From: Candidatus Curtissbacteria bacterium
GTDB taxonomy: Bacteria; Patescibacteriota; Microgenomatia; Curtissbacterales; GWA2-41-24
DNA: 37,995 nt
NCBI GenBank assembly: GCA_016183325.1
Contig: JACPEV010000018.1
Span: forward strand, 1 to 37,995
Direction: 5' to 3'
In this document: positions 14,404 through 27,399 of the stretch, one piece after another
Position numbering within the stretch: position 1 is the first letter of the stretch
Layout of the letters: every line of letters starts with the position of its first letter
The notes under the pieces: generated by a model
The model's input: the letters and a program-made list of their open reading frames with translations, nothing else
The model's database searches: none
Told to the model about the DNA's origin: nothing
Program-made: the position numbers and the translations under genes

Positions 14404-15537
14404 ATGAGAATAGGTATCGATATATCTCAGGTAGTCCACGGTACGGGCGTCTCAGGCTATACTTCGCAATTAGTCGAAAATTTGGCAAAAATCGACAAAA
14501 AGAATCAGTATATTCTTTTCGGTGCTTCGGCAAGAGCCATAGGCAAATTTAATGATTTAAAAGAAAAACTCAAAGATCACCCAAACTTCCGATTTAAAAT
14601 TGTCCCTATCCCGCCCACAATTTTAGAAATCCTCTGGAATCGTTTGCACATCTTGCCCGTAGAAAAGTTCATCGGCCAAGTCGATATTTTTCATTCTTCA
14701 GATTGGACCCAACCGAAAATACAATCGCAAGTAACCAAGAAAGTAACCACAGTCCACGATCTAGTAGTTTATCTTTTCCCCTCAAGTGTTCATCCCAAAA
14801 TTATTGCTGTCCAAAAACGCCGACTCAATCTTGTTAAAAAAGAAGTCGATATCATCTTGGCTGATTCCCAAACCACTAAAGTTGATCTGGTAAAATTTCT
14901 GCAAGTTAAAGAGGAAAAAATTAAAGTGGTTTATCTTGCTGCTTCTGGCGAGTTCAAACCCCAGGACGAAGATCAAATAAGTCAAATTTTACAAAAATAC
15001 AAAATCAAAAAACCTTATCTTTTGTCTGTTGGGACTCACGAACCTAGAAAAAACATCCAAAAGCTTCTTGATGTCTTTGAGCTGATTGTGCAAAAAAACC
15101 CAGGTTTTAGTCTAGTCTTAGTCGGTAAGTACGGTTGGGGTCCTAACTTGGAAGGTTACCATACGGGCGAAAACGTCATTTGGACAAGCTTCGTTCCCAA
15201 AGAAGATTTAATTAGTCTTTACAGCGGCTGTCGAGTTTTTGTCTATCCATCCCTCTATGAAGGATTTGGTTTGCCTGTTCTTGAAGCCATGGCCTGCGGT
15301 GCTCCTGTTGTGACTTCCAATAATTCATCAATGGCTGAAATCGCCAGAGATGCCGCCATTTTAGTTGATCCAAGGAATGAAACCCAGCTTCAGCGTGCAA
15401 TCGAAATGGTTTTATCTTTAAATTTAGAAAATTACCAGAAAATGGTAAGAGCAAGTCTGGATCGAGCAAGACGATATTCATGGATCAAAACCGCTCGTGA
15501 AACTCTCAAAGTCTACGAGGAGGTGGCAAAAAGGTAG
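14404..15537 (+). CDS. GT4 glycosyltransferase (mannosyltransferase-like)
   Basis: MRIGIDISQVVHGTGVSGYTSQLVENL, SVGTHEPRKNIQKLLDVFELI, VYPSLYEGFGLPVLEAMACGAPVV. ATG at 14404 fits better than the listed 14356. Confidence 0.9.
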   Translation: MRIGIDISQVVHGTGVSGYTSQLVENLAKIDKKNQYILFGASARAIGKFNDLKEKLKDHPNFRFKIVPIPPTILEILWNRLHILPVEKFIGQVDIFHSSDWTQPKIQSQVTKKVTTVHDLVVYLFPSSVHPKIIAVQKRRLNLVKKEVDIILADSQTTKVDLVKFLQVKEEKIKVVYLAASGEFKPQDEDQISQILQKYKIKKPYLLSVGTHEPRKNIQKLLDVFELIVQKNPGFSLVLVGKYGWGPNLEGYHTGENVIWTSFVPKEDLISLYSGCRVFVYPSLYEGFGLPVLEAMACGAPVVTSNNSSMAEIARDAAILVDPRNETQLQRAIEMVLSLNLENYQKMVRASLDRARRYSWIKTARETLKVYEEVAKR

Positions 15538-15560
15538 ATGGTTAATAGTTCATGGAAATT

Positions 15561-15596
15561 AAACTATGAACTATAAACTATGAACTATAAACTATG
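15561..15596. repeat. 14-bp tandem repeat AAACTATGAACTAT x2.6, ending in the start codon of the next gene
   Basis: 15561-15574, 15575-15588, partial 15589-15596 (AAACTATG); the final ATG is the start at 15594. Confidence 0.9.
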
Positions 15597-16940
15597 TTAA
15601 TCGGAATTGATGGAAATGAAGCCAATGTCAAACAAAGAGTTGGGTCTGGTCAATACGCTTTCGAGCTTCTGAGACAATTCCACCTGATGTCAATGCGAGC
15701 GAAACGAAGCAATCTCCATCTTCGTCATTCTGGGGAGCGAAGCGACTCCAGAATCGATTCTGGACAAGCCAGAATGACAAAAATGGAAAATGTCATTCTG
15801 GGGAGCGAAGCGACTCCAGAATCAAAAAAAGTGCCAGATCGTACTTTTCTTATTTACCTAAAAGAACCTCCTCTACCGGATCTTCCGCAAGAAACCGAAA
15901 ATTTTAAATATAAGGTTTTCGGTCCGAAAAAGTTTTGGACTCAGTTTGCCCTTCCAATCAGACTGTCAGTAGGGGAGAGACCTCAAGTTTTCTTTTCGAT
16001 GGCTCACTATGGACCAAGATTTTCAAAAGTGCCATATGTCGTGACAATTCATGATCTATCATATCTTCATTACCCCGAATTTTTTAAAAAAAACGATCTA
16101 TACCAACTAACGTCATGGTCAAAATATTCAATCGAAAATTCCGTGCACATTATTGCGGTTTCTGAAACCACCAAAAAAGACATCGTCAAAAATTACGGTG
16201 TTGCCCCTTCTAAAATTTCAGTGACCTACGAGGGGTATGATTCCAAACGCTTCAAACCCCAGTCGCAATCCGCGATTGATAAGGTCAAAAAGCGATACGG
16301 AATTAGCGGTTCCTACATTATTTTTGTTGGCACTTTGCAACCCCGCAAAAACCTCGAACGCTTAATCGAAGCCTTCTCTCTTCTTCCCGCCTCCGAGGTG
16401 GGCTTTGACTCCTCGGAGGTGTCTAATTTGAAATTAGTTATTGTCGGCAAAAAAGGTTGGCTCTACGATTCCATCTTCGAAAAGGTCAAGCAGTTAAAAC
16501 TGGACGACAAAGTCATCTTCACCGATTACGTCCCTGATGACGATCTACCAGCCCTGATCGCTGGCGCCAAGGTCTATGTCCTTCCGTCGCTTTGGGAGGG
16601 CTTCGGCATTCCCGTCATCGAAGCCCAGGCTTGCGGAGTCCCAACTGTTGTCTCCAACACCTCAAGCCTCCCAGAAATAATTGGAGCCGTTTCCTTCACC
16701 CCCGAGGTGAAGTCAAGACGACACTTAGAGAACACCTCGGGGGTGGGCCAAATTGCCAGCGCCATGCTTGTCGATCCGCAAAATGTTGACTCAATCGTAG
16801 CCAGCATCAAAAAAGTCTTGATTGATGAAAAAACGAGGTCCGATCTTATCAAAAAAGGCTTTGCCAACATCAAACGCTTCTCCTGGCAAAAATGTGCAGA
16901 GCAAACTTTAGAAGTTTTAGAAAAAGTAGCCTCAAAATAG
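15594..16940 (+). CDS. GT4 glycosyltransferase carrying several repeat-derived in-frame insertions
   Basis: MLIGIDGNEANVKQRVGSGQYAFELL, FVGTLQPRKNLERLIEAF, VLPSLWEGFGIPVIEAQACGVPTV. Palindromic DNA at 15689-15823, 16390-16419 and 16697-16745 lies inside the ORF. Confidence 0.9.
   Translation: MLIGIDGNEANVKQRVGSGQYAFELLRQFHLMSMRAKRSNLHLRHSGERSDSRIDSGQARMTKMENVILGSEATPESKKVPDRTFLIYLKEPPLPDLPQETENFKYKVFGPKKFWTQFALPIRLSVGERPQVFFSMAHYGPRFSKVPYVVTIHDLSYLHYPEFFKKNDLYQLTSWSKYSIENSVHIIAVSETTKKDIVKNYGVAPSKISVTYEGYDSKRFKPQSQSAIDKVKKRYGISGSYIIFVGTLQPRKNLERLIEAFSLLPASEVGFDSSEVSNLKLVIVGKKGWLYDSIFEKVKQLKLDDKVIFTDYVPDDDLPALIAGAKVYVLPSLWEGFGIPVIEAQACGVPTVVSNTSSLPEIIGAVSFTPEVKSRRHLENTSGVGQIASAMLVDPQNVDSIVASIKKVLIDEKTRSDLIKKGFANIKRFSWQKCAEQTLEVLEKVASK
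15689..15823. repeat. Cluster of palindromic elements inside a GT4 ORF
   Basis: GTCATTCTGGGGAGCGAAGCGACTCCAGAATC twice identically (15724-15755, 15792-15823), an inverted relative GATTCTGGacaagCCAGAATGAC (15756-15778), and a CAATGCGAGCGAAACGAAGCAATCT element (15691-15715). Confidence 0.9.
16390..16419. repeat. Inverted repeat CCTCCGAGG...CCTCGGAGG inside the GT4 ORF
   Basis: 9-bp perfect arms. Confidence 0.8.
16697..16745. repeat. Inverted repeat CACCCCCGAGGTG...CACCTCGGGGGTG inside the GT4 ORF
   Basis: 13-bp perfect arms, 23-nt loop. Confidence 0.9.
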
Positions 16941-19993: not shown

Positions 19994-20907
19994 GCGTTGA
20001 CTTATCAGTGATTATCGTTAACTGGAATACGAAAAAACTTTTGGAAGATTGCCTTTCTTCAATCTTCAAATTCACTAAGGGCATTAGTTTTGAAGTAATT
20101 GTTGTCGATAATGGATCAACAGATGGCTCCCGGGCTATGGTGAAGAAAAAATTTCCTCAAGTAACATTAGTATCCAATAAAGAAAATCTCGGTTTCACCA
20201 AAGCCAATAATCAGGGCATAAAAGTTGCCAAAGGCAAGTATATCTTACTTTTAAACTCCGACACTTACCTTATTGAAAATTCCTTTCCAAAATTAGTGGC
20301 TAAGGCTCGTCGTCTTAAGGGTTCAACCCTCTCGAGGGTTGAACCCTTAGGGGCTCTTGGCCCTTTGCTTTTAGGTGAGGATCAATCGATTCAGCAATCC
20401 GTTGGTTTCTTTCCTTACTTGCCACAAATCTTTTGGTGGATGACTTTCATCGATGATCTTCCCGGTGGCACAATTCTCAAACCTTATCACGTTGATCACA
20501 ATTCTTTTTACCGACAAGATCGCAAAGTCGATTGGGTTACAGGCGCTGCCATTTTGGTCCCAAAGTCGGTGATAAACAGGGTCGGACCCTTGGATGAAAA
20601 AATCTTTATGTACGGAGAAGAAGTCGAATGGTGTTACAGAATAAAAAAGGCTGGCTATTCCATTTGTTTCTCCCCGGTTACCAAAATCATTCACATCGGC
20701 CGGGGGTCACAGAAGATTCCGACAAAATCATTCATCGGTGAATATCAAGGAATAATCTACTTTTACCAGAAGTACAAAGGCAGGCGTTCTTTGCAAATTG
20801 CCCGCCTCTTACTTAAAATGGGAGCACTACTTCGAGTCGGTGTTTTCGCCATTTTAGGCAGAAAGGAGCTTGTCAACGCCTATGTCCAAGCTTTTAAAGT
20901 GGTTTGA
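19990..20907 (+). CDS. GT2 glycosyltransferase (rhamnosyltransferase-like)
   Basis: LSVIIVNWNTKKLLEDCLSSI, VVDNGSTDGSR, NLGFTKANNQGI, LLLNSDT, FMYGEEVEWCYRIKKAGY. Confidence 0.92.
   Translation: MSVDLSVIIVNWNTKKLLEDCLSSIFKFTKGISFEVIVVDNGSTDGSRAMVKKKFPQVTLVSNKENLGFTKANNQGIKVAKGKYILLLNSDTYLIENSFPKLVAKARRLKGSTLSRVEPLGALGPLLLGEDQSIQQSVGFFPYLPQIFWWMTFIDDLPGGTILKPYHVDHNSFYRQDRKVDWVTGAAILVPKSVINRVGPLDEKIFMYGEEVEWCYRIKKAGYSICFSPVTKIIHIGRGSQKIPTKSFIGEYQGIIYFYQKYKGRRSLQIARLLLKMGALLRVGVFAILGRKELVNAYVQAFKVV
20316..20349. repeat. Palindrome TAAGGGTTCAACCCT-CTCG-AGGGTTGAACCCTTA inside a GT2 ORF
   Basis: 15-bp perfect arms. Confidence 0.92.
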
Positions 20908-22447
20908 TGATCACATTCTTGAATATCTTTGCTTTGCTCTCTTAATCTTTATTCCTCTATACCCAAAAATTCCTTTTGCCGACTTGATTCCCGGATATAT
21001 CGTCAGACTCAGACTTGACGATCTTTTGGTAGCCACCGCTTTTATTATTTGGATCATCTGGCTTATTCGTGGTAAAGTTACTCTCCGAGGCAATCCTCTT
21101 TTAATCCCAATAGCAATTTATATTTTCGTGGGATTTCTCTCCGGCCTATCAGCAATCTTTGTCACCAAAACTGTTCCCATAGATGCAAATTTCCTGCACA
21201 TCAGCAAATTATTTTTGCACTTTGTCAGAAGAATTGAATATATTTCTATCTTTTTTATTTTCTTTTCTTCAATAAAATCTCTTGCCCAAATTAAAAAGTA
21301 TGTCTTCGTAGCTGCCATAGTCTTGTTGGCTGTTTCTCTTTATGGTTTTGGCCAGAAATATCTCTACTTTCCAGCTTTTTCAACTATGAATCGGGAATTT
21401 AGCAAGGGAGTTAAGCTTTATCTTACAGAACACGCAAGAGTCCTCTCAACGTTCGGTGGCCATTACGACTTGGCAGCTTATTTAATGTTAGTTTTAACCC
21501 TTTTCATTCCTCTTGTTACCACAGTTAAAAGTTGGCTTCAAAAAAGCTTATTTTTAATTATTTCTCTCTCAGGATTTTGGCTCTTGATCTTAACTGTCTC
21601 CAGAACATCTTTTTTGGCTTATCTTGTGTCAATTACGGTTCTATTCGGGCTTCTTGCAATTAAAAAAGGTTTGGTCTTCGCCTTAATTAATTGGTTTGTT
21701 GTGATTACTATTTCTCTTGCCATTATGCTCTCGTTTGGTGACCTTTCAGATAGATTTGCCCACGTTCTCAAGCTCGACAAATTTAAATTTTCAGCCGCTC
21801 TGAAACCGCTAAAAAAAGAACCCCCAAAAGGAGCTGGAGTTGCTTATCTTGACGTAGGTTCTAAATCAGACACACCTCCTTCAAAAGAAAAGCCAACGAC
21901 AGGCGTCCAAACTGCCAGACCTCAAGATGTCTATGAAGATATTCCTGAATTTGGCGCGACAAGTGCAGGACTTCCAGCATCACTTGCTGCAAAGCCTAGG
22001 ATTTATTCGCAAACAGCAGTTCAGTACGATCTTTCTACAGGAATTAGGCTTGATTACACTTGGCCCCAAGCGATAAAAGGATTTTTAAGAAATCCTCTTT
22101 TGGGGTCCGGCTACTCAACTCTTACCAAAAGGAATATCGAAGACTTCACAGAAGCCGAATCAACAGATAATGACTTTTTAAGAGCTTTGGGAGAAACGGG
22201 CCTGCTAGGATTCCTAGCATTTTTTGGGACCATTGTTTTTACCATATACTATGCCTTAATCAACTTCAAAAGTATCAAAGATCCGTTCCACTCCACTATT
22301 GTTGCAGCCCTTGTCGCTGCTATCATTGGACTTTTAGTCAATGCCATCTACATCGATGTTTTTGAAGCCTCAAAAGTCGCCTATACTTTCTGGATTATGG
22401 TCGCAATCCTTATAGCAACAGTTAAGTTGGCAGTTGGAAAAAGATAG
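20882..22447 (+). CDS. O-antigen ligase/polymerase (Wzy_C/WaaL-like)
   Basis: Polytopic; large soluble loop; 'NPLLGSGYSTL...ESTDNDFLRALGETGLLGFLAFF' Wzy_C signature. ATG at 20882 overlaps the GT2 end. Confidence 0.85.
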   Translation: MSKLLKWFDDHILEYLCFALLIFIPLYPKIPFADLIPGYIVRLRLDDLLVATAFIIWIIWLIRGKVTLRGNPLLIPIAIYIFVGFLSGLSAIFVTKTVPIDANFLHISKLFLHFVRRIEYISIFFIFFSSIKSLAQIKKYVFVAAIVLLAVSLYGFGQKYLYFPAFSTMNREFSKGVKLYLTEHARVLSTFGGHYDLAAYLMLVLTLFIPLVTTVKSWLQKSLFLIISLSGFWLLILTVSRTSFLAYLVSITVLFGLLAIKKGLVFALINWFVVITISLAIMLSFGDLSDRFAHVLKLDKFKFSAALKPLKKEPPKGAGVAYLDVGSKSDTPPSKEKPTTGVQTARPQDVYEDIPEFGATSAGLPASLAAKPRIYSQTAVQYDLSTGIRLDYTWPQAIKGFLRNPLLGSGYSTLTKRNIEDFTEAESTDNDFLRALGETGLLGFLAFFGTIVFTIYYALINFKSIKDPFHSTIVAALVAAIIGLLVNAIYIDVFEASKVAYTFWIMVAILIATVKLAVGKR

Positions 22448-22527
22448 TCATTCTGGAGTGGCAACGACCACGATAGAATCTTAATATTTTAGATCCTATC
22501 GCTGCACTTCGTTTGCTCCAGGATGAC
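22447..22527. repeat. Imperfect inverted repeat GTCATTCTGGAG...CTCCAGGATGAC between wzy-like and GT39 genes
   Basis: About 34-nt imperfect arms; same GTCATTCTGG ends as the copies at 15724/15792. Confidence 0.8.
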
Positions 22528-26208: not shown

Positions 26209-27399
26209 ATGAAGATCGGTATTGATGCCAGGTTTGTAGGCCCTCAAGGGACAGGTCTGGGCAAATACGCGGAAAAACTCATTACTCATCTTGTTAAAAT
26301 CGATCGCAATAATTTTTATGTAATTTTTCTTAAAAAAAACAATTGGGATTATTTAGATCTTGGTGAATACAAAAATTTTAAAAAAGTTTTGGCTGATATC
26401 CCCTGGTATTCGCTTCAAGAACAAGTTAAATTGCCCAAAATTTTCTCAGATGAAAATCTCGATCTTCTCCATATTCCCCATTTCAATGTCCCGATATTCT
26501 ATTTTGGGAAATTTGTAGTGACTATCCACGATCTTATTCACCATCATTTTCAAGAGCAAGCAACAACTACTCGCAACCCCATCATTTTTCGCCTTAAAAG
26601 ATTAGGTTACAACGCGGTTATCAACATTGCCGTCAAAAAGTCAACAAAAATTTTGGTTCCTTCAAATTTTGTCAAAAATGAGGTTGTTAGAACCTTTAAA
26701 ATAAACCCCCAAAAAGTAGTTGTTACCCATGAAGCAGCTGAAGAAGAATACTTCCAAAATGGCAAAGGGCAAATGGCAAATGGTAAATGGCTCGAAAAAT
26801 ACAACATCAAACAGCCATTCGCCATCTATGTCGGTAATGCTTACCCACATAAGAATCTCAACAGGCTCCTTGATGCCGTTAATCTATTAGGACACTTCCG
26901 AGGTGAAAGCTCCTTACACTTCCCAGGTGGGGGGAATTTGCAATTAGTGATAGTTTCTCCTCGTGACGTTTTCACCGAGAAACTTCAGCAGGAAATCAAA
27001 AAGCGCAACTTAGAAAATCACGTTAAGCTACTCGGTTATCAAACGGCAGATAATCTTGCTATGATTTTTCAAAAAGCCGCGGCCTATATTTCCCCATCTC
27101 TATCTGAAGGCTTTGGTATTCCAGGTCTTAATGCGATGGCAACGGGGCTTCCGGTTATCGCCTCAGCTATCCCCACGCTTGAAGAAGTCTATGGTGAGGC
27201 TGCCCTTTATTTTGATCCCCAAAATCCCTACGACATCGCCGAAAAAATTAAAGAGGTTCTAACATTTCCAAAATTAAGAAAGAAACTCATTGCAAACGGC
27301 CAAGAGCAAGTTAAAAAATATTCCTGGCAGAAAATGGCCCAAGAAACTCTAAAAGTCTATCAGGAAGTTGCTTCGCAACAGACAAAAACAAACTTCTAA
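26209..27399 (+). CDS. GT4 glycosyltransferase with internal tandem repeat
   Basis: MKIGIDARFVGPQGTGLGKYAEKLI, IYVGNAYPHKNLNRLLDAV, ISPSLSEGFGIPGLNAMATGLPVI. Confidence 0.9.
   Translation: MKIGIDARFVGPQGTGLGKYAEKLITHLVKIDRNNFYVIFLKKNNWDYLDLGEYKNFKKVLADIPWYSLQEQVKLPKIFSDENLDLLHIPHFNVPIFYFGKFVVTIHDLIHHHFQEQATTTRNPIIFRLKRLGYNAVINIAVKKSTKILVPSNFVKNEVVRTFKINPQKVVVTHEAAEEEYFQNGKGQMANGKWLEKYNIKQPFAIYVGNAYPHKNLNRLLDAVNLLGHFRGESSLHFPGGGNLQLVIVSPRDVFTEKLQQEIKKRNLENHVKLLGYQTADNLAMIFQKAAAYISPSLSEGFGIPGLNAMATGLPVIASAIPTLEEVYGEAALYFDPQNPYDIAEKIKEVLTFPKLRKKLIANGQEQVKKYSWQKMAQETLKVYQEVASQQTKTNF
26757..26791. repeat. 7-bp tandem repeat (AAATGGC-like x5) inside a GT4 ORF
   Basis: AAATGGC AAAGGGC AAATGGC AAATGGT AAATGGC; encodes part of NGKGQMANGKW. 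Confidence 0.85.

Follow-up and report, generated by a model that had tools for sequence, protein, structure and literature searches.

In-frame insertion of small palindromes of two dispersed families into protein-coding genes of Candidatus Curtissbacteria

A glycosyltransferase gene of a Candidatus Curtissbacteria bacterium carries three palindromic insertions, all of them in frame. These are probably copies of two small, non-autonomous families of mobile palindromes, which are kept in loops and whose encoded peptide is incidental: the CACC family (insertions b and c), derived from terminal hairpins of the RAYT/TIRYT type, and the ATTCTGG family (insertion a), a CGTC-tagged REP. We analyzed the insertions in the window (the whole 37,995-nt stretch of contig JACPEV010000018.1), in the genome to which it belongs (G000), and in relatives (all other G numbers; those with names are likewise Candidatus Curtissbacteria).

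Results

Three palindromic insertions in one GT4 gene

The gene encodes a protein of 448 amino acids, which Pfam assigns to the GT4 glycosyltransferases (Glycos_transf_1, PF00534, 1.8e-38; also PF13439). Its reading frame is uninterrupted through all three repeated segments (Table 1), and the repeats were found where the initial annotation had placed them. Insertion (a) consists of four REP-like units instead of one. The 32-mer GTCATTCTGGGGAGCGAAGCGACTCCAGAATC occurs in it in two exact copies (15724-15755 and 15792-15823), and the decayed first unit now folds no better than shuffled sequences. Insertions (b) and (c) belong to one family and differ in their spacers of 8 and 23 nt, respectively. 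The spacer of (b), ggctttga, recurs between different arms elsewhere in the genome (G000:C15:13920), and insertion (c) has perfect 13-bp arms (16697-16709/16733-16745). Relative to shuffles, single-strand folding gave z-scores of -3.8 for (b), -4.3 for (c), and -3.9 for the REP dimer of (a).

Table 1. Positions of the GT4 genes and palindromic elements in the window
Feature	Position	Strand	Remarks
GT4 glycosyltransferase gene with three in-frame palindromic insertions	15594..16940	+	Pfam; orthologs from 11 genera within the family
Decayed REP unit GTCAATGCGAGCGAAACGAAGCAATCTC, insertion (a)	15689..15716	+	25/27 identical to GTCATTGCGAGCGAAGCGAAGCAATCT in RF1 of relative G004
CGTC-tagged REP unit, insertion (a)	15723..15755	+	in-frame reading RHSGERSDSRI
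Inverted partner in head-to-head REP dimer (GATTCTGGACAAGCCAGAATGAC), insertion (a)	15756..15778	-	
Second exact 32-mer copy, insertion (a)	15792..15823	+	other frame, VILGSEATPES
Insertion (b), CACC-family double palindrome, subtype 13-8-13	16388..16421	.	peptide ASEVGFDSSEV; imperfect repeat
Insertion (c), CACC-family double palindrome, subtype 13-23-13	16697..16745	.	peptide TPEVKSRRHLENTSGV
Neighboring GT4 gene, matching positions without insertions	14404..15537	+	Pfam
Third GT4 paralog	26209..27399	+	Pfam
Decayed CACC-family element (13-11-13) in third GT4 paralog	26893..26929	.	loop homologous to (b); folding lost
Intergenic REP dimer, ATTCTGG family	22447..22527	.	adjoins stop codon of ORF 20882-22447

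An AlphaFold2 model of the GT4 protein, computed from 32 sequences, reached a mean pLDDT of 88.6, with values mostly above 90 outside the inserts. Its low-confidence residues (approximately 50-80, 261-280, and 361-385) are the three inserts, with pLDDT values of 49-57, 72-74, and 50-72 for (a), (b), and (c), respectively. The model supports a location of the inserts in loops, in agreement with the surface-loop placement suggested initially, and predicts that the core fold is intact despite them.

Both families are dispersed, and identified CACC hosts are mostly housekeeping genes

The repeats are enriched in the window: GTCATTCTGG was found 7 times with one mismatch allowed, compared to 1.7 expected from shuffling, and CACCYCCGAGGTG 11 times with two mismatches, compared to 0.39. 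Genome-wide, GTCATTCTGG..CCAGAAT has 24 sites per strand (control 0) and CACCYCSGRGGTG, with one mismatch allowed, 113 sites (control 2). The elements are therefore not confined to this locus. This dispersal, together with the empty sites in orthologs described below, bears out the initial view of small palindromes inserted in frame, except that insertion (a) is unrelated to the family of (b) and (c): there are two families, not one.

A CACC element consists of two 13-nt arms, each self-complementary around an odd center, and the spacer between them (CACCYCSGRGGTG-spacer-CACCYCSGRGGTG), and is 34-82 bp long. The spacers fall into classes of 8, 11, 17, 20, 23, 32, and 56 nt, that is, steps of three; classes of 9 and 10 nt are rarer. 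Exact CACCYCSGRGGTG sites number 71 in G000, 31 in G009, 18 each in G010 and G011, 13 in G003, and 14 in G032, with few or none in most other relatives.

The position of the elements relative to genes was determined on stretches fetched around matches, and genes outside the window were called with a small dicodon script, which is not a standard caller and reproduces the genes of the window. Among the matches listed, the G000 genome has 46 CACC clusters, 32 of them genic, 10 intergenic, and 4 at an edge. Seven of 11 clusters are genic in G003 and 11 of 18 in G009, so that 50/75 of the clusters listed for the three genera lie inside genes; about 30% of the classified clusters are outside.

According to the same dicodon caller, the ATTCTGG family has 10 genic clusters out of 32 (21 intergenic, 1 edge), a distribution that differs from that of the CACC family (Fisher p = 0.001). 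Its commonest layout is a head-to-head dimer, TGTCATTCTGG..CCAGAATC..GATTCTGG..CCAGAATGACA. A CGTC/TGTC tag followed by a stem starting with AT is present (CGTCATTCTGG at 15723, elsewhere mostly TGTCATTCTGG). The core stem is ATTCTGG/CCAGAAT, its inner part is longer and variable, and the tail is C, not CCA. We also noticed MITE-like intergenic units of about 190 bp with the ends GCTGAAAACCT and AGGTTTTCAGC that contain a dimer of this family (L127, L129, L132, L137, L138, L146). Some intergenic copies may have spread as passengers of these units.

CACC elements reside in frame in, among others, genes for TsaD, GatB, LepA, RF1, trigger factor, class II (FBP) aldolase, NAD kinase, and MiaA, as well as UvrD, a PurL-like protein, a PolA exonuclease domain, a RecF/SMC-like ATPase, and membrane mannosyltransferases, all with Pfam support. 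Most identified hosts are housekeeping genes, with roles in translation, tRNA modification, DNA repair, and central metabolism. The proposed restriction to glycan enzymes is ruled out by hosts such as TsaD, GatB, LepA, and RF1. As a separate observation, a UvrD-like helicase-nuclease gene (L126:3-3536, 1178 amino acids open) combines an intein match (PF14890) with CACC and REP insertions.

The same loops are empty or differently filled in paralogs and orthologs

Of the paralogs in the window, the neighboring GT4 gene is compact at the matching positions, as annotated initially, and the third paralog carries a decayed CACC element itself. We also compared eleven orthologs from the same GTDB family. 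These proteins (65-74% identity) mostly lack the three segments, the exceptions being shared or differing inserts; insert lengths are approximate at the base level, with relatives only about 60-70% identical in protein. At site A, differing REP-type inserts are found in G001, G006, and G003, and site B is filled by other repeats in G003, G009, G014, and G015. A CACC element is present at site C, with a 23-nt spacer in G000 and G009 and with an 8-nt spacer in G003. In the G003 ortholog (L030, whose assembly has a short stretch of Ns around residue 215) all three sites are filled, each unlike the window's insert. In the GT4 tree, G009 groups with G003 (support 91) and the backbone lacks resolution. 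We considered whether insertion (c) is orthologous in G000 and G009 and did not adopt this view: the position is the same, but this tree does not distinguish descent from repeated insertion.

A further kind of repeat was seen near and in these genes. The spacer upstream of the GT4 gene (15541-15590) is made up of a tandem aactatgaactataaactatg unit, and a similar unit, GTTCAxAGTT, is found in frame in TsaD of G009 and, in both G009 and G015, at site B of GT4. Besides the two palindrome families, units of this type are a third sort of repeat that enters coding loops.

Comparable patterns were observed in other hosts. One loop of RF1 contains CACC elements, not all of one subtype, in G000, G003, and G009, and the same linker holds CGTC-type REPs in G004 and, judged from the peptide, in G001. 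TsaD has several unrelated inserts at one single loop. In GatB, approximately 20 residues are missing exactly at the element in nine relatives, and the TsaD and GatB sequences with solved structures are devoid of the segments. One insertion in a PMT gene is common to G000 and G003. In 5/13 genera of the RF1 alignment, CACC or CGTC-type palindromes sit in the linker ahead of the central domain (RF1 genes L249, L250, L251, L260).

In relatives, CACC palindromes flank Y1 transposase genes from a single clade

The G000 genome harbors six RAYT-sized Y1 (PF01797) genes. The 13-mer palindromes next to them are different ones, in one case arranged as a double palindrome in the manner of CACC (AAGGTGCCACCTT-gacat-AAGGTGGCACCTT). 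The exact CACC consensus flanks none of the six in this assembly, which is about 95% complete. In the relatives, it is found on both sides of three Y1 genes (L184, L185, L206) and on one side of a fourth (L205), and CACC...GGTG variants flank five more on both sides (L186, L192, L193, L194, L199); each of the nine genes has a CACC...GGTG palindrome on either side. In the tree computed for 33 Y1 proteins, one clade contains all of the nine CACC-flanked ones (9/15 versus 0/18) together with four from G000. The hypergeometric p value for this concentration (~1e-4) treats the proteins as independent, which they are not. From these matching ends we infer that a Y1 transposase of this clade moves CACC elements in trans. 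The 32 dimers examined gave no consistent target duplication, with a 2-bp direct match in seven (about two expected, p ~0.007), and no common flanking motif was evident among them.

The palindromes could instead be immobile now, as old shared insertions that were passed on by descent and through recombination or gene conversion among the copies. Such a history would account for positions common to different genera, for decayed copies such as 15689-15716 and 26893-26929, and for G000 Y1 genes none of which is CACC-flanked. But many copies keep perfect arms, orthologs carry different subtypes in the same loop (GT4 site C, RF1), and the GT4 orthologs are mostly empty. We therefore regard present-day immobility as unlikely.

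Insertions are read in two frames, and CACC copies avoid the third

Within the GT4 protein, the two exact 32-mer copies of insertion (a) are read in phase 1 and phase 0, respectively, indicating that it is the DNA and not the peptide that spreads. The CACC family behaves similarly. An arm that opens a codon gives HLRG or HPRG, and an arm beginning at a codon's third base gives TSEV or TPGV. Since HLRG and TSEV occur in different hosts, the DNA is again what is conserved. The remaining phase would encode PPR, followed by Cys, Trp, or a stop. It was observed in 0/50 of the intragenic clusters listed for three genomes, compared to 29% expected from the share of open frames; the nominal p value of 5e-8 is too small because copies are shared by descent, and G000 alone gives ~2e-5.

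A three-base regularity was also evident in element length. Among the intragenic dimers listed, 35/38 are 3n+1 long, so that the two arms start a multiple of three apart and share one frame. Of the distinct exact dimers in the genome, 26/31 already have this length, and the rule may therefore be a trait of the family rather than of each insertion. Because the arms are self-complementary, they are near-direct repeats, and a slip between them removes a multiple of three. The PurL-like gene, with one arm in G000 and two in its G009 counterpart, would fit a deletion of this kind. Phase avoidance and arms sharing a frame would both be expected if the segments are translated and then filtered by selection.

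Selection might be dispensable if a target sequence steered insertion into coding loops or into a particular codon phase. The empty third phase (0/50) and the repeated use of the same loops in several genera could be explained in this way, but a flanking motif in common is not evident, about 30% of the copies are non-genic, and a third phase consisting of PPR plus Cys, Trp, or stop means that a filter at the protein level suffices. Targeting is hence quite improbable. Likewise, the palindromes might be removed before or during translation, by RNA excision or translational bypass, leaving normal proteins. Strong hairpins and tolerance in essential hosts would agree with removal, but open frames, the three-base rule, and avoidance of the third phase are all seen and would be needless under it, which makes it very improbable. 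If the segments were ordinary loop extensions, functional, specific to the lineage, and selected for their peptide, with palindromy only a by-product, they would lie in natural loops and be common to genera, as some inserts are (site C in G000/G009, the PMT gene in G000/G003), but this reading is already largely refuted, and its chances are slight, given one DNA sequence in two frames, arms giving HLRG or TSEV in unrelated hosts, 113 genome sites with about 30% of classified clusters non-genic, and relatives filling the same loops with different palindromes.

We therefore favor mobile palindromes of two families. A CACC element would combine both terminal hairpins of a Y1 (HUH) transposase gene of the RAYT/TIRYT type, and a transposase of this kind would disperse it in trans by working on single-stranded hairpins. 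The ATTCTGG family would be a CGTC-tagged REP related to RPE-4/6/7. Genic copies would survive if they lie in a surface loop, add 3n bases, and are free of stops, and the encoded peptide would be incidental. The insert peptides are presumably translated, as the reading frames suggest, and they are probably neutral to their hosts. The initial annotation had proposed that the palindromes tolerate or favor in-frame insertion: they are tolerated in coding loops, but favoring does not follow, as survivorship and a length stepping by three explain the pattern equally well. More tentatively, and with somewhat less than even confidence, we propose that the CACC family represents a miniature, Y1-transposase-borne element that has adapted to coding sequence and is now mainly intragenic, with spacers stepping by three, arms sharing a frame, and slips deleting multiples of three, and that essential proteins throughout a CPR family have repeatedly gained loops from it.

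Discussion

Our search of the literature on REPs and coding palindromes in CPR/Patescibacteria, with subscription papers mostly outside its reach, found no earlier report. As far as searched, what is new lies in the lineage, in the mainly intragenic residence of the CACC family in housekeeping genes and its three-base regularity, and in the transposase ends that match the palindrome. The results describe a counterpart to the Rickettsia phenomenon in a distant lineage with reduced genomes, where housekeeping genes are the main hosts, and with a candidate transposase clade with matching ends the entry of such DNA into coding sequence becomes testable. They also point to a steady supply of new protein loops in CPR genomes, and of errors in annotation and alignment.

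Palindromes lying in frame within genes of Rickettsia have been described since 2000, and we know of no mobilizer for them. The elements studied here resemble RPE-1 to RPE-7 and the Wolbachia WPE in being dispersed, in frame, and located in loops of protein genes, including essential ones, with empty sites in orthologs. Different RPE groups can occupy one position in Rickettsia orthologs (PMC3767692). The analogy to Rickettsia drawn initially holds in particular for the ATTCTGG family, which shares the CGTC/TGTC tag, the head-to-head dimers, and the ATGAC end, a motif of RPE-4/6/7 (PMC3767692). The CGTC REP superfamily, which includes RPE-4 and RPE-6, has an unpaired CGTC/TGTC tag, a stem of 8-9 bp starting with AT, a loop of 4-5 nt, a CCA tail, and mainly head-to-head dimers, and is stated to lack a transposase (PMC3733652). 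Unlike the RPEs, our elements come from a lineage distant at the phylum level, and the CACC family has other arms, a length of 34-82 bp, and a matching Y1 clade in relatives; we do not claim RPE membership for it.

The palindromes of RAYT/TIRYT systems flank a Y1 HUH transposase gene and are dispersed as dimers, sometimes within genes (PMC3733652). The CACC family is similar in that Y1 HUH genes are palindrome-flanked on both sides, in relatives and not in G000. REPs are described as mostly intergenic, whereas about two thirds of the CACC clusters listed are genic and in frame. Nematomorph mitochondria also have inverted repeats within coding sequence, but those palindromes are long, perfect, and actively maintained, and their authors set them apart from dispersed selfish palindromes (PMC6649704). 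Taken together, the phenomenon is real and general and is closest to the Rickettsia palindromic elements and the RAYT-associated REPs. The best reading is that the elements are miniatures of the RAYT/TIRYT type, tolerated in coding loops in the manner of the Rickettsia RPEs.
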